This document shows, piece after piece, positions 3,688-54,014 of a DNA stretch of 64,000 nucleotides. Positions within the stretch are counted from its first letter, which is position 1. Each line of letters begins with the position of its first letter. The DNA lies in contig CT971583.1 of NCBI GenBank assembly GCA_000063505.1, forward strand, positions 248,001-312,000, in the 5' to 3' direction. The notes under the pieces are model-generated. The model ran no database searches. It saw only the letters and a list, made by a program, of their open reading frames with translations, and was not told the DNA's origin. A program made the position numbers and the translations under genes. This stretch comes from Synechococcus sp. WH 7803 (GTDB taxonomy: Bacteria > Cyanobacteriota > Cyanobacteriia > PCC-6307 > Cyanobiaceae).

Positions 3688-5495
3688 ATCCGTCCGTTGC
3701 GGACGCGGTCGCTGTAGCGATACACCTCCTCGTAGTCGTTGAGGGTGTCGCCGAGGAATCCCAGCCCGCCCTTGTCGATGTTGATCAACAGATCTCCGGC
3801 TTTGGGCTGGTAGTCGGAGCCTTTGTTGATCCCATCCACAACGCTGTAGCGGCGTGTGTCGGGATCTAAGTACACCAGGCGGTCGTAATGGAAGCGGTCG
3901 AGATGGCGATTGCGGCGAAACCACGATTTGGTGAAGATCACATTCACATCGCGGCCGCTGCGTCTGGTGTCTCGGGTGATGGTTTCAATGCGCTCCACCG
4001 TTTGCAGCCAGGACGCCTGTTTGGTTTTCAGGTTGACGACGCGCTCGAGAAAGTTGTCGTCAACCTGGTGTTCTACGGCAATGAATCCTGCGCAACCAAC
4101 GACCCCTACCAAGGCTGTGGCACCAGCGCTTCCCAGGCGGCGAGAGAGCCTGGGTGCGATCCAGGCGGTCCAGGCAAAGGCCAGGTCCAGCACGGCCACC
4201 AGCTGCACCGGAAGCGCCATGTAACTGCTGCCCTCGTATCCCACCAGCACGTAAAGCGCGCCTGCGTACAGCACAGCGCCGCTGCTGAGTCCATCCAGGA
4301 GCTGGATGGATCCTCCATGCCGTAGCAGGGTGCTGATGCGGATTCCTAGGTAGGCGAGGGGAATCCACAGGCGAGGATCCGAGGAGAGCTGGTAGATGTC
4401 GTTGGAGCTGTAAGCCGTTTTGCCGTGGTACAGGCTTGGCAGGTAACTGAGGTAGACGTACGCCAGAACGACCACGACGAGCAAGCTGCTGATCCAGAGT
4501 TCGAGCTGATACGAGCGCAACCAGCGACCGATCCAGGCCATCCGCGTCGGCCGCTGCAGCGCGGCCAGCGTTAGGGCTGGTCGTCCCTCAATCCGTCCAG
4601 CTGCTCCAGCGATCAGCGTGACCAGCGCTGGTGTGACAAACAGCAGCACGGCGATCTCCTTGAAAAAGAGCCCGATCAGGGCCCAGATCAAGGTGAGTGC
4701 CTGGCTGCGCCGATCGCCGCTTTGCAGCGCATCGAAGTAACAAACGCTGAAGGCCATCAGGCACAGGGTGAGCATGCGCTCGGCGTAGATCAGCTGAAAG
4801 AAGGCAAAGCCGGTGGATGGTGCCGAGAGCAGCAGCAGGCTGATCAGCAGCAGCAGAGCCTTGGCTGGAGGCCCCGGGCTCAGGCGCCGGATCAGGCGAT
4901 GGGCCAAGACCACGATGGCGAGCAGTTCAGCGGCGCTCACCAGCATCCAGACCTTCACGTAGGCCGTGAACCAGCTCAGAACATGCAGATCCTGGTGGGC
5001 CAGGGGGAAGAAGCGGTAGTCGTTGCGCAGCATCGTTTCCGAGATGAACTCGTAGCGGACGCTGAAGTTGTCGAGCAGTTTGTGGTCGATGATGCCGTCG
5101 TACCAGCCCACCAGCTCGGGAAACAACCAGTGGGTGCCGTTGACCATCGCCACGGTGTAGGCGATGAACAGCAGCAGCACGATCGGGTGCTCGCGAGCGA
5201 AGCTCAGCAGTTGCCGATGCCACGGTTTGCCTGTGGGTTGCTGCTGGGGGTCACGGCGGCTGAACCAGAGCAACCCCACAACCGCCAAGCCCAGCAGGAT
5301 GAGCCACAGATCGTGGGATGTGCGGTTGTAGTGGTAAAGGAGGTCTCGGCCTTCGCTGCTGCGCGGGGAAGGCAGGGAGTTCAACGACCGCAGCAGCCAC
5401 AACCAGGCCACCAGGGCTGCGGCGCCCAGGGCACTGCAGAGACCAACCATCCAGGCCCACCGCTGACGACGCCGTTGAACGAGGCTCTGAAACAT
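3654..5495 (-). CDS. Multi-pass membrane protein, unknown function; paralog of the neighbour at 5508-7121
   Basis: The 613-residue product has many hydrophobic segments through about residue 480, then a soluble C-terminal tail of about 100 residues (VIFTKSWF, then YSVVDGINKGSDYQPKAGD). It is clearly homologous to the adjacent gene: both share a block with NGTHW/HGTNW, FISETM/FIAETM, RFFPLAHQDLH, LSWFTAYVKVWML and the same tail layout. The order of membrane helices with a conserved polar loop (HQDLH) after the early helices is reminiscent of GT-C glycosyltransferases, but I see no diagnostic motif. It lies 12 bases downstream of its paralog and in the same transcription unit as kdsA, which suggests a role in a KDO-linked surface glycan. 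I do not recognise the family. Confidence 0.75.
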   Translation of the reverse strand: MFQSLVQRRRQRWAWMVGLCSALGAAALVAWLWLLRSLNSLPSPRSSEGRDLLYHYNRTSHDLWLILLGLAVVGLLWFSRRDPQQQPTGKPWHRQLLSFAREHPIVLLLFIAYTVAMVNGTHWLFPELVGWYDGIIDHKLLDNFSVRYEFISETMLRNDYRFFPLAHQDLHVLSWFTAYVKVWMLVSAAELLAIVVLAHRLIRRLSPGPPAKALLLLISLLLLSAPSTGFAFFQLIYAERMLTLCLMAFSVCYFDALQSGDRRSQALTLIWALIGLFFKEIAVLLFVTPALVTLIAGAAGRIEGRPALTLAALQRPTRMAWIGRWLRSYQLELWISSLLVVVVLAYVYLSYLPSLYHGKTAYSSNDIYQLSSDPRLWIPLAYLGIRISTLLRHGGSIQLLDGLSSGAVLYAGALYVLVGYEGSSYMALPVQLVAVLDLAFAWTAWIAPRLSRRLGSAGATALVGVVGCAGFIAVEHQVDDNFLERVVNLKTKQASWLQTVERIETITRDTRRSGRDVNVIFTKSWFRRNRHLDRFHYDRLVYLDPDTRRYSVVDGINKGSDYQPKAGDLLINIDKGGLGFLGDTLNDYEEVYRYSDRVRNGRIYRFRASPAAE

Positions 5496-44936: not shown

Positions 44937-46424
44937 GTGACTGTTGCTCCCGCTGTTGACCGCTTTGCGCGCTCGGAATGGGCCAGTGCCTTTCGCAATG
45001 TGGAGCAGGAGCTCACCGATGTGCCCCTGACCCCGGCGCGCGGCACCATCCCTTCCGACTTGGTCGGAACCCTGTACCGCAACGGTCCCGGTCGGCTTGA
45101 GCGCAATGGCCAGCGCGTGCATCACCCCTTCGATGGCGATGGGATGATCACGGCCCTGCGCTTTGAAGAGGGCGCGCTTGCCCTCAGCAATCGCTTTGTG
45201 CGAACCGCCGGTTGGCAGGAAGAGGAAGCAGCGGGAAAGGTGCTGTATCGCGGTGTGTTCGGCAGCCAGAAGCCCGGCGGGCGCTTGGCGAATGCCTTTG
45301 ATCTGCGCTTAAAGAACATCGCCAACACCGGGGTGGTGCAGTTGGGTGACCAATTACTGGCGCTCTGGGAAGCGGCGGAACCGCATGCGCTGGATCCCCG
45401 CACCCTGGAAACCCATGGCATCAGCCTTCTGGGCGGCGTGCTCAAGAAAGGTGAGGCCTTCAGTGCGCACCCGCGCTTCGATCCCGGCCATCACGACCGT
45501 CCACGCATGGTCACCTTCGGGGTCAAAACCGGACCGCGCAGCACCATCCGCTTGATGGAGTTCGCCACCGAAACCGACGCTGCTGCAGGCATCAAGGCCG
45601 GCGATCTTCTCTGTGAACGCAAAGACAGTTTCAACGGCTTTGCTTTTCTCCACGATTTTGCGATCACACCCAACTGGGCGGTGTTTCTTCAGAACGCCAT
45701 CGCCTTCAATCCTCTGCCGTTTGTCCTCGGCCAGAAGGGGGCGGCGCAGTGCCTGGAGTCGAAGCCGGATGGTCAGGCCAAGTTCTGGTTGATTCCCCGG
45801 GAAAGCGGTGCCTTCGCCGGGCAGCCGCCACGCATCGTTGATGCCCCGGATGGCTTTGTGTTCCACCACCTCAACGCTTGGGAAGACGACGGCGATGTGG
45901 TGGTGGAAAGCATCTATTACAGCGATTTCCCCTCGGTTGGCCCGGAGATGGACTTCACCGCAGTGGATTTCGATCTGATTCCAGAGGGCCTGCTGGAGCA
46001 ATGCCGCATCACCCTGGAGAGTGGTGAGGTGAAGACCACGCGCCTGAGCGAACGCTGCTGCGAATTCGCCATGGTGAATCCTGACAAGGAAGGTCTCCCT
46101 TGTCGCTATGCCTGGATGGCCGCCGCCGCTCGGGAGCAGGGCAATGACCCCCTGCAGGTGATCAAGAAGCTGGATCTCAGCACTGGGGATCGCCAGATCT
46201 GGAGTGCCGCACCCCATGGTTTCGTCAGCGAACCGCTGATGGTTCCCCGCCCCGGTGCCAGCGCTGAGGACGATGGCTGGATCCTGGAACTGGTCTGGAA
46301 TGGGGCTCGGGAAGGATCCGACCTGGTGATTCTTGATGCAGCTGATCTCAAGGAGGTTGCCGTGATTGAGCTGCCTCTAGCGATTCCCCACGGGCTGCAT
46401 GGCAGCTGGGTGGAAGCCCGCTGA
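44937..46424 (+). CDS. Carotenoid cleavage oxygenase (RPE65/ACO family)
   Basis: The 495-residue protein belongs to the Fe(II)-dependent carotenoid oxygenases. The four iron-ligand histidine regions are recognisable: SAHPRF (His178), FLHDFAIT (His239), FHHLNAWEDDGD (His310 or 311), and HGLHGSW (His485/488). Near the N-terminus is GTLYRNGPGRLERNG. It would cleave a carotenoid or apocarotenoid to an aldehyde such as retinal, with the exact substrate unknown. The GTG at 44937 is used. Its upstream neighbours fabI and hisB are in the same direction but unrelated in function. Confidence 0.92.
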   Translation: MTVAPAVDRFARSEWASAFRNVEQELTDVPLTPARGTIPSDLVGTLYRNGPGRLERNGQRVHHPFDGDGMITALRFEEGALALSNRFVRTAGWQEEEAAGKVLYRGVFGSQKPGGRLANAFDLRLKNIANTGVVQLGDQLLALWEAAEPHALDPRTLETHGISLLGGVLKKGEAFSAHPRFDPGHHDRPRMVTFGVKTGPRSTIRLMEFATETDAAAGIKAGDLLCERKDSFNGFAFLHDFAITPNWAVFLQNAIAFNPLPFVLGQKGAAQCLESKPDGQAKFWLIPRESGAFAGQPPRIVDAPDGFVFHHLNAWEDDGDVVVESIYYSDFPSVGPEMDFTAVDFDLIPEGLLEQCRITLESGEVKTTRLSERCCEFAMVNPDKEGLPCRYAWMAAAAREQGNDPLQVIKKLDLSTGDRQIWSAAPHGFVSEPLMVPRPGASAEDDGWILELVWNGAREGSDLVILDAADLKEVAVIELPLAIPHGLHGSWVEAR

Positions 46425-47292: not shown

Positions 47293-48525
47293 GTGCGTGA
47301 TCGCCTGCTTTGGCTGTTCAGCCTTCTCTTTGTTCTCTGGTTGGTCTGGGTGGAGACCGGCTTTCAGTACTACGAAAGGGCGCTCGGTTCGGAGTTGCTT
47401 GTTCGGCCAGCGGGTCTGGCCCTGATTGCAGGCAGCTTTCTGGTGCCCTACGGGCTTGTGCAGGTTCCCGTGGGGCGACTGATCGATCGCGGCCGGGTTG
47501 AGCTCTGGCTGCTTCTGGCTGCGTTGGTCGCTGCGAGTTGCAGCGTGGTGTTTGCCCGCAGTGAAACCCTCATGGGGTTGTTGCTCTCCCGGATCGGCAC
47601 GGGGATGGCTTGTGCCGTTGCATTCCCGGCTTCGGCGGTTCTGGCGCGGCGCACCCTGCCGACCCATCGCTTTGCGTTGGCGATGGGATGCACCGATGCT
47701 CTGGTGGGTTTGGGGGCTGCGCTCGCTGCGCTGGTTCCCCTGCTTCTGGGTCGCTCAGCCTGGCGGGGTTTGGTGCTGCTCCAGGGCCTTTCGCTGCTGC
47801 TGGTGGTGGCCTTGCCGGTGTTGCTCCTGGGTGTGTGCAGCAACGGGCGGGCCCGGGTGGAATCGCTGCCGATCAGCGCGTCTGTGGTGAACGTGCCGCG
47901 CTGGAGCCGGGGGGGCGTGCTGCGACTGATTCAGTGCTGCCTGCTCTATGCCTGGGGGCTGGGATTTGTGTTCGGGATGGCCCAGTACGGCCTTCTCTCC
48001 ACCCTGAAGGGATGGTCCAGCCCCTTGATGGAAGGACTCACCCTCACCATGTCCATCGGTTTGATGGTGGGCATGGTCGGCAGTGGGGCGCTGGGTGGTC
48101 GGCCTCAGCGACGGGGCCGTGTGCTGCTGCTGGGAACCCTCCTCACGCTGTTGTCCCTGCTTCTTCTGCTGGCATCCTGGATTCCCCAACCGCTGTTGCA
48201 GCTGCCGGCGCTCACCTTCGGCATCGGCATGGGTTCGGCCGTTTTGGCCTTCCCGATTGCGGAGGCCTCGGCTCCTGCCGGACAGACGGCGATGACCGTT
48301 TCGATCGTCAACACCTGCGGAACCCTGATGGGCGGAGTGATGACCGTGGTGTCAGGCTTGATCCTGCAGGCTTCGCCAAGCGGTGATCTCTCGCTGGTGC
48401 TGGTGATCTATGGCGCACTCGCCCTGTTTGGGGTCGCGATGGCGGGCTGGATCAGCTTGAACCCGGAGCCTGTTGACGCTGCTGCCATTCCTTCCAGGCC
48501 AGACGCGGTGCCGTCCAGAGAGTGA
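47293..48525 (+). CDS. Major facilitator superfamily transporter
   Basis: The 410-residue polytopic protein has about twelve hydrophobic segments in two halves. VPVGRLIDRGR follows helix 2, at the place of the MFS loop motif, and LLSRIGTGMACAVAFPAS corresponds to the early helix 4/5 region. The first helix has an aromatic-acidic character (LVWVETGFQYYER) common in sugar-phosphate/anion-type MFS proteins. Substrate and direction are unknown. A GTG at 47293 is the likely start. The 3' end overlaps the BCCT transporter gene (convergent) by 74 bases. Confidence 0.85.
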   Translation: MRDRLLWLFSLLFVLWLVWVETGFQYYERALGSELLVRPAGLALIAGSFLVPYGLVQVPVGRLIDRGRVELWLLLAALVAASCSVVFARSETLMGLLLSRIGTGMACAVAFPASAVLARRTLPTHRFALAMGCTDALVGLGAALAALVPLLLGRSAWRGLVLLQGLSLLLVVALPVLLLGVCSNGRARVESLPISASVVNVPRWSRGGVLRLIQCCLLYAWGLGFVFGMAQYGLLSTLKGWSSPLMEGLTLTMSIGLMVGMVGSGALGGRPQRRGRVLLLGTLLTLLSLLLLLASWIPQPLLQLPALTFGIGMGSAVLAFPIAEASAPAGQTAMTVSIVNTCGTLMGGVMTVVSGLILQASPSGDLSLVLVIYGALALFGVAMAGWISLNPEPVDAAAIPSRPDAVPSRE

Positions 48526-50032
48526 TCAGCACCAGGGGGGTGACCGGAACGGCTGAAATCACAATGAAGGCCTGCAGAGCATTGATCGATGTGCTGTCTC
48601 CCAGGCTGGTTCCGATGCGCAGCAACACCAGGGTGAGGCTGCCAATCATCAGGGCCCAGAACAGACGCAGAAGGGCGGGTGGCTTGCGCTGGGCACTCAC
48701 CACCATGGCAGCCGCGTAGCTCATCGAGTCGGCGCTGGTGGCCATGAACAGCACCACCAGAATCAGACCAACAGGAATCAGCAGCCAGGGGAGTGGGAGC
48801 TGGCCAAGGATGGCGAGCAGAGCGCCTGCTTCGCCACTGGCAGCCAGAGGGCCACTGATGGCTCCTGGATTGCTCAGCTCCAGTTGCATGCCAGTGCCCC
48901 CCAGCAGGGTGAACCAAAGATTGGTCACGATTGGGCAGAGGATCGCCACGGCGAGCACCAGTTCGCGCAGGGTTCGGCCCCGGCTCACGCCTGCGGTGAA
49001 CAGCCCCATCAAGGGGGCGTATCCAAGAAACCAGCCCCAGTAGAACACCGTCCAGGCATTGACCCAGTTATCGGGCCCACGGTTGGGAGCCAGGGCCATC
49101 GGCACCAAGTTGCTCACGTAGAGCGTGAAGGAACTGGCGAAGTGTTGAATCAGCCAAACACCGGGCCCCAGCAGAAGCAAGGCCGCTGCGAGGCCAAGCG
49201 TCAGCCAAACGTTCACTTCCGACAGCCATTTGATGCCCCGTTGAATGCCGCTCACCGTGGATGTGGCGAACACGGCGGTGAGCAGGACCACCACCAACGA
49301 CTGCAGCCCTGCGCTGTCGCTGAGGCCAGGCAGCATGCCGGCGGCGTTGCTCAGCTGCAGTGACAGGAAGCCGAGGGGGCCCACCGTGCCAGCAATGGCT
49401 GCCACCACAGACAGTCCGTCGGCCAAGTCCCCAAGCGGGCCTTCGACCCATCGATGGGGAAGCAGTCCCACCAGAAGAGTGCGAGGCCGCAGGGGTTCTC
49501 CGCGCTGCTCCTGGATCGACAGGGTGATTGTGACCGTGGTGGCCACCAGTGCCCAAGCCAGGAATCCCCAGTGCAGGAAGCTCACGGCCAAAGAGGGATC
49601 GACAGCTGCCGCTGTGGAACCTTTGACAGCGCTGAAATAGGGCGCGGGCGTGCGGAAGTGGAACAGGGGCTCGGCCGCTGACCAGAACACACCGCCACCC
49701 GCCAGCAGCGTGCAGATCAGCACGGCGCACCAGTCAAAGAATTTCAGGCTTGGCTTGGCATCGACGCCTCCCAAGCGCAGGCGTCCCACGGGACTGATCG
49801 CCATCACCACGGCAATTACGAACAGCAACAGCACCATCCACTGCCACAAGCCGCCCAGGGATCCACTGACGATGGCTTTGCCGGAGCTGGTGAATTGCTG
49901 GGCGAGTGTGAGGTCAACGGCCGCCAGCACCAGGAAGGCCAGCAGAGGCCCTGCGCCGATCCAGAGGGGAGGACGACGCCACCAGGGCCCTGCCGAAACA
50001 GGACCGTCGCCGAGGTTGGTTGGATCGCTCAC
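48452..50032 (-). CDS. BCCT family transporter (betaine/choline-type)
   Basis: The 526-residue transporter has about twelve helices and the BCCT signature region NAWTVFYWGWFLGYAPLMGLF, with the aromatic cage motif, and GVFWSAAEPLFHF in an early loop. These proteins use sodium or proton gradients to import quaternary-amine or trimethylamine-like compounds such as glycine betaine or carnitine. It is the last gene of a four-gene unit with an oxidase, a leucine-dehydrogenase-like protein and a SABATH methyltransferase, 35 bases after the oxidase gene. It probably brings in the substrate for that pathway. Confidence 0.92.
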   Translation of the reverse strand: MSDPTNLGDGPVSAGPWWRRPPLWIGAGPLLAFLVLAAVDLTLAQQFTSSGKAIVSGSLGGLWQWMVLLLFVIAVVMAISPVGRLRLGGVDAKPSLKFFDWCAVLICTLLAGGGVFWSAAEPLFHFRTPAPYFSAVKGSTAAAVDPSLAVSFLHWGFLAWALVATTVTITLSIQEQRGEPLRPRTLLVGLLPHRWVEGPLGDLADGLSVVAAIAGTVGPLGFLSLQLSNAAGMLPGLSDSAGLQSLVVVLLTAVFATSTVSGIQRGIKWLSEVNVWLTLGLAAALLLLGPGVWLIQHFASSFTLYVSNLVPMALAPNRGPDNWVNAWTVFYWGWFLGYAPLMGLFTAGVSRGRTLRELVLAVAILCPIVTNLWFTLLGGTGMQLELSNPGAISGPLAASGEAGALLAILGQLPLPWLLIPVGLILVVLFMATSADSMSYAAAMVVSAQRKPPALLRLFWALMIGSLTLVLLRIGTSLGDSTSINALQAFIVISAVPVTPLVLITLWTAPRLAWKEWQQRQQAPGSS

Positions 50033-50067
50033 GAAAACGCCTTAACGAAGAACTGACGGGTCGCGCT

Positions 50068-51255
50068 TCAGGCGCGCACGGCCTCACGTTGATGACTCCA
50101 GCAGGAGAGATCCACGGCCGGTGATTCACCGCAGGCCAGTCGGGCGAGGGAATCGCCAACGAGAGGAGCGAATTTGAACGCCTGGCCCGAGCCGCCTGCA
50201 AACAGGCTGAGCTTTGGCGTGAGGCGATCGAGAACGAAGTTCACATCGCTCGTCATGGAGTAGGGGCTCATCACCGTCTCCACCCGCTCCTGCACTCCGT
50301 TGAGTTCGTTGAACAGGAAGGTGTCGAGAAGTTCGAGCAGTCGCGCCGGGGCTTCACTGCACATGGCATTCGGTTCAGCAACCCGCAGCTCCTTGGGAGC
50401 CCAGTCGATACCGGCCTTGATGCGCGGCCGTCCATCTGCCGTGTGGCTGAGGACAGGGAATCCGTAGTACAGGCCGCCATCGTCGCCGCGTTCCCGTTGG
50501 AAGCAGAACCATTGCGGATAGCGATCTGCCAAGGCGGGGTCAACGGTGTAATGCGCCCACAACATCGGCCAGATCTCGAGCTTTGGAGACAGACCCAGCG
50601 GGGCCAGCAACAGATCGCTCCAGATGCCGCAAGCCACCACCACCTGATCGGCAGCGATGTGATGACCGTCAGCCAGGGTCACGCCGCCGCCGTCGGCATC
50701 AATTCCTTTCACTGGAGTGCCCTCCAGAAGGCGATGACCCGCCTGTTCCGCTGTGCGCCGCCAGTGGGCGATCACCTTGTCACTGCGGACTGCTCCTGCG
50801 GTGGGTTCGAATAAACCTGTGAAGTCGGCCTTGGGTTTGAGGGGAAAACGTTCGGCGATCTCCTTTGCGCTCAGAGCCTCGTAGGGAATGTTCTGTTCAT
50901 CCATTACCCGCCGGGCACCGGGAATGGACCCTTCGATGGTTTCTTCGTCCCAACTTTCGCCGTAGAACAACAACCCGTGGGTTTCCCTCAGGGGCTCTCC
51001 GGCGTGCTGCTCTTCCTGCCGCCAGAGGCGATTGGCCTCCTGGGCCAGTCGGCAGAGCACCGGGTCGGAATACATCTCCCGGAACATCCGGGTTTCACCG
51101 AAGCTGCTGGCCCGTGCATGGGCCAGCGTCTTCGCTTCCAACAGCACGACATCACGCACTCCCCGTCGGCCGAGAGCTGCTGCACAGCTCAGGCCAGCCA
51201 TGCCGCCACCGACTATCACGACCTCGGCCTTGACAGGCATTGGTGATTGGCTCAT
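50068..51255 (-). CDS. Sarcosine/N-methyltryptophan oxidase-like FAD enzyme (MTOX type)
   Basis: The 395-residue flavoprotein has the N-terminal dinucleotide fold VVIVGGGMAGLSCAAALG and the sarcosine-oxidase-like ASSFGETRMFRE stretch. Its C-terminal segment, SPYSMTSDVNFVLD then GGSGQAFKFAP, aligns with the flavin-attachment region of monomeric sarcosine oxidase. Where the covalent cysteine (Cys315 in the Bacillus enzyme) would be, this protein has Ser330, so the flavin is probably not covalently held. Lys361 in GQAFKF is conserved. It should oxidise an N-methyl amino acid with release of formaldehyde and hydrogen peroxide. Its start overlaps the dehydrogenase stop by 4 bases. Confidence 0.88.
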   Translation of the reverse strand: MSQSPMPVKAEVVIVGGGMAGLSCAAALGRRGVRDVVLLEAKTLAHARASSFGETRMFREMYSDPVLCRLAQEANRLWRQEEQHAGEPLRETHGLLFYGESWDEETIEGSIPGARRVMDEQNIPYEALSAKEIAERFPLKPKADFTGLFEPTAGAVRSDKVIAHWRRTAEQAGHRLLEGTPVKGIDADGGGVTLADGHHIAADQVVVACGIWSDLLLAPLGLSPKLEIWPMLWAHYTVDPALADRYPQWFCFQRERGDDGGLYYGFPVLSHTADGRPRIKAGIDWAPKELRVAEPNAMCSEAPARLLELLDTFLFNELNGVQERVETVMSPYSMTSDVNFVLDRLTPKLSLFAGGSGQAFKFAPLVGDSLARLACGESPAVDLSCWSHQREAVRA

Positions 51256-52307
51256 GCAGCGTCTCCAAAACTGAGGCCGATGGGATCATGCTCCCGTTCT
51301 GCGGCCACTTCCACCAGAGCATCACCCACCGACAGCCCCTGGTCACGCTGATTGAGATAGTTGGTTGCGCGTTGACGCACTTCCTGGCGAACGAAGGCGT
51401 ACACATCGTTGGCACCAGCACCTTCCCAGGCATCCGGTGAAAAGCGTTCGATCGAATCGGCAATCACGGCACCGGCATTCACCAGTGGGTCGGGCAGCAC
51501 GCGGATGTTGCGGCGGCGTAGATCGTCAGCAAGTTGGGGCTGCTGGAAGGGGGCATTGGCCGCTGGTACCACCGCAGCAACCTTCAGTGCGGAGGCCATC
51601 TCCGCATTGATCAGCCCGGAAATGGAGCAGGGGATCAGGAGATCCACCTTGATCTCCCACCAAGGACAGTCGCTGGGCAGGGGGGTGGCTCCAGGAAAAC
51701 TCGCGCGTGATCGGTCGAGATCGGCCGTGAACACAGTCCAACCGTGCTCGACCAGCACGCGAGCCACAGTGCCTCCCACGGCGCCGCAGCCATGCACAAG
51801 AGCACGGCCAGGGGTGGCCTGGCTGAGTTCGGCTTCGAGGACAGCTTCAACGGCGCCCAACGTGCCGTGGGCCGTAGCGGCACTGGCATCCACCGGGCTT
51901 CCGACAGCAGCCAGCACATGGGGGGTAAGCGCCGTCAGGCGCTCCATGTCTTCCAGGCTGGTGTTCAGATCACAGCCGGTGATCATGGCGCCATCGAGGG
52001 ATTCGAGCAGGCCAGCCGTGACCTGGATCAGCTCGTCCTTCACCGCCGCTGGTTCAGCAGCGCGCGCCACGATCTTGCCTCCGGCGAACCCCGTTCCATA
52101 GAGGTCATGCTTGTGCGTCATCAGCCCTGCCAGGCGTTCTCCGTCGGCGATGCACGCTGCGTCGCTTGGATAGTTGAGCAAGCGCAGACCGCCATTGGCG
52201 GGGCGGGCGGAGTCGGTGTTCTCCGCGACGACAAACACCGAGAGATGATCTGAGACGTGCTCAGCCAGCACCGACACGGTCGGCTTGGGACGGGTGATCG
52301 TTGTCAT
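51252..52307 (-). CDS. Leucine/Glu/Phe/Val dehydrogenase-like protein
   Basis: The 351-residue product matches the amino acid dehydrogenase family. PANGGLRLL, then THKHDLYGTGFAGGK with Lys66 and Lys78, and Asp113 in TGCDLN correspond to the two catalytic lysines and the aspartate of leucine dehydrogenase. The NAD domain has HGCGAVGGTVARVL and PCSISGLINAEMASAL. It may deaminate an amino acid to a 2-oxo acid or run in reverse. I chose the ATG at 52307, which shares its last base with the upstream stop; upstream sequence is not family-like. It is in the middle of the coupled operon. Confidence 0.85.
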   Translation of the reverse strand: MTTITRPKPTVSVLAEHVSDHLSVFVVAENTDSARPANGGLRLLNYPSDAACIADGERLAGLMTHKHDLYGTGFAGGKIVARAAEPAAVKDELIQVTAGLLESLDGAMITGCDLNTSLEDMERLTALTPHVLAAVGSPVDASAATAHGTLGAVEAVLEAELSQATPGRALVHGCGAVGGTVARVLVEHGWTVFTADLDRSRASFPGATPLPSDCPWWEIKVDLLIPCSISGLINAEMASALKVAAVVPAANAPFQQPQLADDLRRRNIRVLPDPLVNAGAVIADSIERFSPDAWEGAGANDVYAFVRQEVRQRATNYLNQRDQGLSVGDALVEVAAEREHDPIGLSFGDAA

Positions 52308-53344
52308 CAGGCCACTTTCTCCATCATTTGGTGGTGTTCGACGTAATCGAGGCTCCACTCGCTCGGTGCATCGGCAATGCGTTGCTGGAGGCGCTCATAA
52401 ACGAGGTCAGCGGCCTTGTCACCGGCAGCACTGGCGAAGCTATGGCGACTCCAGCTGCGGATTGTGGCCATCAGGCCTGCCGCAAAGGTGGCCGTATCGC
52501 CATCCTCGTTCCAGCGCCTGCGGTATGGGCACTTCACGTACACCGTGCGTTCATCCACCAGACGCAGGCCGTTGCGGTAAGGCGCTGATGATTCGTCCTT
52601 CAGCGGCGCCATGAATTCATCGGGGGACTTGTAGAAGTTCAGCACCGTGCCGTTGCGGTACTGCTCCTCACTGATCACCCCTTCGTCGGCCAATTCACGC
52701 CAGATCTGATGCAACTGGTCGTGCACATTGCGTGTCTCGCCGCCGTTGTGTCCGAGATAGCGGCCTTCATGGTCCCGTGACAGGTTCACGGTCAGCAGCC
52801 GGCCACCCACAATCAGCTCGCGGCTGCGCAGTTCCAGCACATAGGTCCAGTCCTTGAGGGCCTGGGCCGTGAAGCGCTGCAGCGCATCGGCGTCTCCCGA
52901 GGCCAACACGTGGGTATGGGTATTGAGCGGTCCGGGTGACTCGCTCAGCCAGTGCATGGCTGTTGCGGAGAAGCCGAAACTAATGGTGTTGGGGCCGACG
53001 GAGGGCTCGTAAAAACTCCGGGCACTCACCAGAACGGTGGGCTTGGGGTCCCTGGGAATCTGCAGCGCCAGATTTTCGGCCAGGGCCACGTTGTCGTTGC
53101 TTGGCAGATCGTTGCCGATCAACGTGAGGTGAGCCTGCGGCTGCTTGGCATGCAGGCGATCGAGGATCTGGCTCCAGAGCCCTACGGCGGTCCCTCCATC
53201 GGCTGCTCCGTAATCGATCAGCACGTGGCTGTCAGATACAGGAAGTTGATCCACACAAGTCAGGGCCCAGTCCGAGGCGGCTTCAATGCAGAGGAGAGCG
53301 CCTTCGGTCTGCGCGCTGTAACCCGTGGTCATGGCAATGGCCAT
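52307..53344 (-). CDS. SABATH-type SAM-dependent carboxyl methyltransferase
   Basis: The 345-residue protein has clear SABATH family blocks: GYSAQTEGALL at the N-terminus, IDYGAADGGTAVGLW (SAM site), LTLIGNDLPSNDN, ARSFYEPSVGPNTISFGFSA followed by TAMHWLSESP, and GGRLLTVNLSRD. In plants these enzymes methylate carboxyl groups of salicylate, jasmonate, indole acetate or caffeine precursors. The tryptophan in HWLS usually contacts the substrate. Its substrate in a cyanobacterium is unknown. The stop and the start of the next gene overlap by one base. The start at 53344 could shift to an internal ATG at residue 5. Confidence 0.86.
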   Translation of the reverse strand: MAIAMTTGYSAQTEGALLCIEAASDWALTCVDQLPVSDSHVLIDYGAADGGTAVGLWSQILDRLHAKQPQAHLTLIGNDLPSNDNVALAENLALQIPRDPKPTVLVSARSFYEPSVGPNTISFGFSATAMHWLSESPGPLNTHTHVLASGDADALQRFTAQALKDWTYVLELRSRELIVGGRLLTVNLSRDHEGRYLGHNGGETRNVHDQLHQIWRELADEGVISEEQYRNGTVLNFYKSPDEFMAPLKDESSAPYRNGLRLVDERTVYVKCPYRRRWNEDGDTATFAAGLMATIRSWSRHSFASAAGDKAADLVYERLQQRIADAPSEWSLDYVEHHQMMEKVA

Positions 53345-53420
53345 AGACCTCGTCAGCGACAGCGTTCACGGTACAGGAGTCGTCTGTCAGGACTTCGTGA
53401 CATAGGTCACCACGGTGGTC

Positions 53421-54014
53421 TCAGGCCTCCATGAGCAGTTGCCGGAGCTTGGGTTCCAGCAGGGCAAAGGCCCGCCCCCGATGACCCTGCGCTTTCTTTT
53501 CTGGCGTGGTCATCTCGGCGAAGGTGCGTGCGGTGCCATCCACTTCGAAGATCGGGTCGTAGCCGAAACCACCCTCGCCTCGGGGGCTGCGCGTGATCTG
53601 GCCAGCGCAGCGACCCTCCACTTCCAGCAACACGCGACCACCAGGAGCGGCCAGACACAAGGCCGCGCTGAAATGGGCACTACGGTCGTCGCGATCCTTC
53701 AGGGCCTCGAGCAGTCGGCTGATCCGTTCCGGGTCGGTTGGGGCATAGCGGGCGGACTGCACCCCAGGGGCTCCGTTGAGAGCATCAACGCTCAGGCCTG
53801 AGTCGTCGGCAAGAGCCCAGGACGCTGTGGCGTCAGCGACGGCCACGGCTTTCAAACGGGCATTGGCAGCGAAGGTCTGCCCCGTTTCCTCCACGTCCAG
53901 ACCGTCCGGCTGGGCTGTGATCTGCAGAGGAAGACCGGTCAGTAGGTGTTCGAATTCACGAATCTTGCCGAGATTGCCACTGGCGATCACCAGGGTGCGC
54001 AGGGACGGGCTCAT
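53421..54014 (-). CDS. rdgB: XTP/dITP diphosphatase (RdgB/HAM1)
   Basis: The 197-residue house-cleaning pyrophosphatase removes deaminated purine nucleotides. It has the family N-terminus LVIASGNLGKIREFEHLL, the ALADDSGLSVDALNGAPGVQSARYA active-site region split over residues 66-90, and GEGGFGYDPIF, with AQGHRGRAF near the C-terminus. It is downstream of the phosphohexomutase gene with a 4-base overlap. Confidence 0.95.
   Translation of the reverse strand: MSPSLRTLVIASGNLGKIREFEHLLTGLPLQITAQPDGLDVEETGQTFAANARLKAVAVADATASWALADDSGLSVDALNGAPGVQSARYAPTDPERISRLLEALKDRDDRSAHFSAALCLAAPGGRVLLEVEGRCAGQITRSPRGEGGFGYDPIFEVDGTARTFAEMTTPEKKAQGHRGRAFALLEPKLRQLLMEA

Follow-up and report, generated by a model that had tools for sequence, protein, structure and literature searches.

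A conserved picocyanobacterial operon as a candidate route from lysine to homarine

Introduction

The closest described counterpart of the system studied here is the NikC/NikD branch of nikkomycin biosynthesis, which leads from lysine through piperideine-2-carboxylate to picolinate. NikC is an aminotransferase, NikD is a flavoenzyme that converts piperideine-2-carboxylate to picolinate and oxidises 3,4-dehydroproline as well, and the picolinate ends up in a peptide antibiotic. Here, we describe a four-gene operon of Synechococcus sp. WH 7803, located in a stretch of 64,000 nucleotides of its genome (hereafter the window; GenBank assembly GCA_000063505.1, contig CT971583.1, positions 248,001 to 312,000). 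It encodes a SABATH methyltransferase (SAB), an ELFV amino acid dehydrogenase (LDH), an FAD oxidase (OX) and a carrier of the BCCT family (BCCT). The intermediates that we propose and the FAD enzyme group are like those of the nikkomycin branch, whereas the lysine-consuming step would fall to a dehydrogenase instead of an aminotransferase, and the proposed product is a free betaine. We consider it likely that the function of this operon is to make the betaine-type osmolyte homarine (N-methylpicolinate) from lysine, with BCCT as its carrier.

According to the available text of Heal et al. 2021 (PMC8269262), the two Synechococcus strains that were tested, WH8102 and WH7803, both contain homarine, and its synthesis and breakdown pathways had not been characterised. 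The accessible part of Boysen et al. 2021 (PMC8269247) likewise describes genetic information on homarine as lacking. A later correction (PMC10134881) cut the homarine values to 1/25. The corrected maxima are 18 mM over both Synechococcus strains and, for samples from the North Pacific, 0.25% of the particulate carbon; WH7803 has about 0.2 mM. The operon itself has probably been reported from WH8102, where Mao et al. 2010 (PMC2874817) predicted a five-gene operon, SYNW0229-0233; the correspondence is drawn from the published description and not from sequence. The portion of that paper available to us assigns SYNW0229 as BetT, gives SYNW0230-0233 as possible betaine transporter subunits, interprets the locus as betaine uptake with no link there to homarine or picolinate, and places the genes for glycine betaine synthesis and ProVWX transport at SYNW1913-1917. 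If the two loci are the same, this one has already been published as an osmotic operon. Our literature search returned no published homarine link for it; preprints and most subscription papers were outside that search, so a published pathway could exist.

Results

A candidate pathway

From the gene order, conservation, protein families and residue patterns reported below, we infer the substrates, products and reactions of the following pathway. LDH would deaminate L-lysine oxidatively with NAD+, giving 2-keto-6-aminocaproate, and this compound would close spontaneously to piperideine-2-carboxylate. OX would then aromatise piperideine-2-carboxylate to picolinate with oxygen, in the manner of NikD, and SAB would transfer the methyl group of S-adenosylmethionine to the ring nitrogen to give homarine. 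BCCT would serve in the retention or recovery of homarine at the cell membrane, and the presence of a betaine-family carrier among the four genes agrees with a betaine as the end product. The clues are modest when taken singly; jointly, they point to one metabolite that has been measured in these strains. With slightly less confidence than for the route itself, we favour the view that picocyanobacteria owe their homarine synthesis to this operon, which is nearly universal in two genera and occurs in some Prochlorococcus, and that it encodes an ELFV lysine 2-dehydrogenase, a NikD-like aromatising oxidase whose flavin is not covalently linked, and a picolinate N-methyltransferase of the SABATH family.

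Organisation of the operon

The first-pass annotation of the window had described four consecutive genes on one strand, and this layout is confirmed: there are four open reading frames (ORFs) on the minus strand, the stop codon of SAB and the start codon of LDH have one base in common (TGATG), the LDH stop and the OX start overlap by 4 bases (ATGA), and 35 bases separate OX from BCCT (Table 1). For LDH we use the ATG at 52307; a longer frame with a GTG start opens at 52358. The four family labels given at first pass (SABATH, leucine dehydrogenase-like, MTOX-like oxidase, BCCT) are upheld by Pfam.

Table 1. Features of the operon, in positions of the window
Feature	Coordinates	Strand	Description
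SAB, SABATH methyltransferase	52307..53344	-	345 amino acids; PF03492; proposed picolinate N-methyltransferase (homarine synthase)
LDH, ELFV amino acid dehydrogenase	51252..52307	-	351 amino acids; PF00208/PF02812; proposed L-lysine 2-dehydrogenase giving piperideine-2-carboxylate
OX, FAD oxidase of the MSOX/MTOX/NikD group	50068..51255	-	395 amino acids; PF01266 (DAO); proposed oxidase from piperideine-2-carboxylate to picolinate
BCCT carrier	48452..50032	-	526 amino acids, GTG start; PF02028; proposed carrier of homarine (or a related betaine)
Conserved leader TGTACnGTG...CGCTGACGAGGTC	53345..53375	-	directly 5' of SAB

Conservation and taxonomic distribution

We searched 251 genomes of the family for the four proteins and found OX in 40, SAB and LDH in 41 each, and BCCT in 39. 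Every one of the 40 genomes with OX also has SAB and LDH, and 39 of them have BCCT, which was not found genome-wide at E <= 1e-50 in the OX-bearing genome G229. The surplus SAB match is a distant one (genome G194, E 2.3e-11) and the surplus LDH stands alone (genome G030). The 39 OX loci besides the window (L031-L069) were fetched, together with that of G030. SAB, LDH and OX are adjacent, in the same order and on the same strand, in all 39, and BCCT comes next in 38. When the start codon nearest the upstream stop is used, LDH and OX overlap by 4 bases in 37 loci, while SAB and LDH overlap by 1 base in 32 and by 4 bases in 6, one locus (L033) having no usual start; the distance between OX and BCCT is variable. 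The linkage of the four genes exceeds chance. Regular separation of the orthologs, named at first pass as evidence that would speak against an operon, was thus not observed among these loci, and the overlaps and conserved order make a single transcription unit with linked function likely, as the first-pass annotation had suggested. Three of the loci carry broken frames, in SAB of L035 (near 3040) and L042 (near 7140) and in a rearranged OX of L068 (near 5230-5340). These may be true losses, which would make their carriers natural non-producers, or sequencing errors.

A SAB profile matched 30 of the 31 genomes of the window's genus, including all 24 of good quality, and 28 of the 34 genomes of the genus of G216. 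In the latter, 17 of the 19 good-quality genomes match and the profile search gave no match in the other two, G225 and G521. Across the phylum (292 genomes), the same profile matched 13 genomes, all from two picocyanobacterial genera, and the OX profile matched 15, namely the 13 genomes with SAB and two weak outsiders. No viral copies were found when viral contigs were scanned with the SAB and OX alignments. Two picocyanobacteria have distant SABATH-type genes outside such operons (G222:C1:1325085-1326107 and G194:C9:450281-451318; 23-24% identity).

When genome contigs were scanned with the LDH alignment, 46 loci were obtained; because several of them come from genomes that are also in the family sample, the two sets cannot be counted as independent. 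The four genes are present in 28 of the 46 loci (some meeting a contig end), including that of RCC307. Another 12, all from Prochlorococcus and including HNLC1, HNLC2, MIT 9201 and MIT 9401, have SAB-LDH-OX and no BCCT in the fetched stretch, a trio consistent with three core biosynthetic enzymes to which the carrier is an optional addition. The remaining loci are two ended by a contig edge (L098, L114), one lone LDH, one chimeric fragment (L113) and two outside the family (L115, L116). The lone LDH, a presumed lysine-type dehydrogenase from Cyanobium CH-040 (L070 3974-5098 / L112 6001-7014), has about 60% identity and keeps the Asn and Asp pocket sites described below; SAB and OX are absent from the stretch fetched around it. 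L113 (5850-6410), from a metagenome-assembled genome of Hyphomonadaceae, was rejected as a case of gene transfer: its LDH fragment is fused to a truncated frame of alphaproteobacterial type at a contig end and looks chimeric. L115 (Bacillus) and L116 were dropped as ordinary or unrelated, L115 being kept in the set of 85 LDH sequences used below. In several Prochlorococcus (L069 3427-4149, L102, L107, L109, L111, L114), a protein of 240 amino acids is encoded 3' of OX, in the place of BCCT; by eye, it has a helix-hairpin-helix-like end.

Distances of SAB, LDH and OX are correlated at 0.97-0.98 when Prochlorococcus is included, values that are inflated by those loci. Without them, the correlations among the three enzymes are 0.81-0.93, those with the neighbouring HAM1-type pyrophosphatase gene (53421-54014, same strand, upstream of SAB) are 0.71-0.78, and those with BCCT are 0.54-0.67. 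This gives moderate support to a three-enzyme unit and weaker support to the membership of BCCT.

The oxidase resembles NikD

The best match of OX in the PDB is NikD, both with the single sequence (132.9 bits, 1.2e-37, followed by the sarcosine oxidase 7exs with 124.2 bits, 4.8e-35, and by MTOX with 3.6e-24) and with a profile (145.5 bits, 1.8e-41, the next kinds reaching 130.2 bits, 7.9e-37, and then 1.2e-28). OX lies below the NCBIfam cut-offs for N-methyltryptophan oxidase (186.7 vs 257 bits) and for the soxA subfamily (152.1 vs 479.65). The MTOX-like label of the first-pass annotation therefore named the right group of oxidases but is approximate, as NikD is the nearest solved relative by score.

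We take Arg53, Glu101, Tyr258, Asp276, Cys321, Trp355 and Lys358 to be the functional residues of NikD. In a MAFFT alignment, E108 of OX pairs with NikD Glu101 inside a short insertion that is missing from MSOX, 7exs and E. coli SolA, and the same pairing is found in two further alignments, one of them profile-based. The surrounding motif, TIEGSIPG, occurs in all 81 OX homologs from the fetched loci. R59 and K361 of OX pair with NikD Arg53 and Lys358, and Tyr258 is also conserved; these positions are kept in MSOX and MTOX too. Taken together, these patterns suggest that OX could convert piperideine-2-carboxylate to picolinate.

The dehydrogenase appears to have an acidic pocket site

The AlphaFold model of LDH (predicted local distance difference test, pLDDT, of 87.3) has the ELFV fold, with a Z score of 35.9 to phenylalanine dehydrogenase 1c1d, and the catalytic residues K66, K78 and D113 are conserved in the MAFFT alignment. 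The fold and the catalytic Lys, Lys and Asp are common to the leucine, phenylalanine and tryptophan dehydrogenases of the ELFV family, ScyB among them, but LDH is below the ScyB equivalog cut-off (99.2 vs 600) and differs from these enzymes at two sites which we presume to belong to the side-chain pocket. Asn38 stands where leucine dehydrogenase (LeuDH) has Leu40 and glutamate dehydrogenase (GluDH) has Lys89, and Asp284 stands where they have Val294 and Ser380, respectively (MAFFT); in LeuDH, this lining is hydrophobic. In LeuDH 6acf, tryptophan dehydrogenase 5b37, 7vid, the Bacillus homolog and E. coli GdhA, the residues are L, M, L, T and K at the Leu40 site and V, V, V, V and S at the Val294 site. 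Asp occupies the Val294 site in 84 of the 85 LDH sequences, the exception being the ordinary Bacillus homolog L115 (V), and Asn occupies the Leu40 site in 81, the others being one ambiguous letter, two in which the site was not found and the Thr of Bacillus. Among 30 control dehydrogenases that were fetched, 17 could be read by a simple motif, and in all 17 the sites of Asp284 and Asn38 are occupied by Ser and Lys, respectively, as in glutamate dehydrogenases.

Three of five HMMER alignments, as well as MAFFT, are ungapped at the Asp284 site. We prefer the ungapped alignment to the gapped one because it keeps the next Glu aligned and because the GluDH motif VATSAIE (10 of the 17 read) matches VIADSIE without a gap. 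An acid in the pocket would suit a cationic side chain, and lysine is proposed as the substrate of LDH because its positive side chain fits such a site. LDH is the sole ELFV dehydrogenase found in the window's genome at E <= 1e-10.

The methyltransferase and the carrier

SAB matches Pfam PF03492 well above the gathering score (1.2e-21, 77.7 bits vs 29.8). Its nearest solved relatives are the fatty acid O-methyltransferase 5f2k (6.5e-18) and then SAMT by single sequence, and 3b5i and SAMT by profile. With 5f2k and the plant SABATH methyltransferases, from which it is distant, SAB has in common the HWL pocket motif, found as ATAMHWL in 79 of 80 homologs. It differs from them in one profile alignment, to 8wwq, by Ala16 in place of the Gln of the NSxxQ motif. 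As we take this Gln to be the carboxylate-holding residue of SABATH carboxyl methyltransferases, Ala16 weakly favours methylation by SAB at nitrogen over oxygen.

The BCCT family comprises betaine importers, and the carrier of the operon shares PF02028 (5e-126, 421.5 bits vs a gathering score of 27) with BetP, CaiT, DddT and the trimethylamine carriers. BetP-type glycine betaine carriers hold the trimethylammonium group in a complete box of Trp and Tyr residues. The homologs of BCCT have the motifs HWGFLAWALV (65 of 66) and FYWGWFLGYAP (63 of 66); the corresponding segments of the trimethylamine transporter 8zw8 read HWGLHAWGIY and FYWAWWIAWSP. The box thus reads W...V in transmembrane segment 4 (TM4) and WGWFLGY in TM8, instead of W...Y and WAWWIAW in 8zw8, i.e., Tyr is replaced by Val in TM4, and in TM8 one Trp by Phe and another by Tyr. 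Such an altered cation box may suit a different, perhaps aromatic, betaine.

Leader and regulation

Among the 74 loci with 60 upstream bases, the full leader motif was found in 35 and its 3' block in 39. Other Synechococcus carry near variants of it, and the Prochlorococcus loci have none. The window contains a single copy of the motif, there are no further copies in the 74 loci, and the sequences diverge farther upstream. The leader possibly consists of a -10-like stretch and a ribosome-binding region. Because the leader is conserved, single in the window and not found elsewhere in the 74 loci, the operon is probably transcribed from a promoter of its own. A strict GTAN8TAC, which we take to be the NtcA-type site, was not found within 250 bases 5' of SAB, either in the window or in any of the 39 fetched loci.

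Flanking genes

An ORF of the MFS type (47293-48525, plus strand) converges on BCCT and overlaps its 3' end by 74 bases (48452-48525); in many of the relatives whose loci were fetched, no MFS homolog was seen beside the operon. A carotenoid-oxygenase-like ORF (44937-46424, labelled by eye) flanks the operon in many of these relatives too. The GC content of the window is 62-66% in steps of 8 kb.

Discussion

The first-pass annotation had read the operon as catabolic: BCCT would import an N-methylated amino compound, OX would demethylate it, LDH would deaminate the product for nitrogen, and SAB would methylate a carboxylic product. Such a pathway would be in line with the import of betaines by the BCCT family, with the DAO group that OX shares with sarcosine and N-methyltryptophan oxidases, and with the grouping of the genes in one operon. 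However, our analysis did not support it, and we regard it as very unlikely: the three enzymes are encoded without a nearby BCCT in 12 of the 46 loci, OX is closer by score to NikD than to MSOX or MTOX, the pocket of LDH appears acidic, strict NtcA-type sites are lacking upstream in the window and the 39 loci, and SAB, the first gene, is left with no clear job. A role in glycine betaine housekeeping, in which BCCT would take up glycine betaine, OX would be a sarcosine or dimethylglycine oxidase for its turnover, and LDH and SAB would be side enzymes, seems if anything slightly less probable still. The place of sarcosine oxidase 7exs as second PDB match of OX speaks for it, as does the accessible text of Mao et al. 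(PMC2874817), in which a locus that is probably this one is assigned to BetT and possible transporter subunits. Against this stand the betaine synthesis and ProVWX genes that the same text places elsewhere, at SYNW1913-1917. Moreover, in BCCT the Tyr of the TM4 box is missing and two Trp of TM8 in 8zw8 are replaced by Phe and Tyr, OX is under both curated cut-offs, MTOX and soxA, and LDH and SAB would serve no purpose.

A biosynthesis of similar logic with another product has more in its favour, although we still judge it unlikely. The product could be the ester methyl picolinate, given that the solved SABATH relatives are mainly carboxyl methyltransferases, or it could derive from ornithine or another dibasic amino acid, e.g., a pyrrole-2-carboxylate derivative, since the acid in the LDH pocket would suit any cationic side chain and NikD also acts on 3,4-dehydroproline. 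What favours homarine over these products is that the N-methyl compound is the one measured in WH8102 and WH7803, that a betaine-family carrier lies within the operon, and that SAB has Ala16 where the presumed carboxylate-holding Gln would be in the alignment to 8wwq.

Several observations weigh against homarine synthesis by this operon. In OX, Ser330 replaces the flavin-linking Cys321 of NikD and MSOX in 12 of 12 aligned homologs, and the motif SPY[ST]M occurs in 78 of the 81 homologs (it was not found in 3); the missing covalent FAD link could weaken oxidase activity. Gln358 stands at the position of NikD Trp355, again in 12 of 12 aligned homologs, OX Asp284 pairs with NikD Asp276 in one of three alignments, and the identity of OX is higher to sarcosine oxidase 7exs (35.1%) than to NikD (33.3%). 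For LDH, two of the five HMMER alignments (8gxd, 3vpx) have a two-residue gap that pairs Asp284 with an Asp of LeuDH outside the Val294 site, and we know of no lysine dehydrogenase in the ELFV family. The structure model of SAB is poor (pLDDT 61.8), and methylation of a ring nitrogen would depart from the main activity of its solved relatives, which act on carboxyl groups. To our knowledge, no activity has been assigned to any of the four proteins. WH7803 is about 100-fold poorer in homarine than WH8102, though both seem to have the locus. Finally, the available text of Heal et al. (PMC8269262) states a quinolinate/tryptophan origin of homarine as an assumption, and it also records the compound from one haptophyte strain and from four of the six diatoms studied. 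This operon cannot be the source of homarine in those algae.

According to the accessible parts of both 2021 papers (PMC8269262, PMC8269247), gene-based work on the sources of homarine has been blocked by the missing synthesis genes. If the operon indeed makes homarine, three or four marker genes would suffice to map bacterial homarine makers in metagenomes and to predict the producers among Prochlorococcus. The finding would also mean that homarine can be made from lysine as well as by the quinolinate route assumed so far, extend known enzyme families by new activities, and allow the flow of carbon and nitrogen from picocyanobacteria to heterotrophs to be studied.

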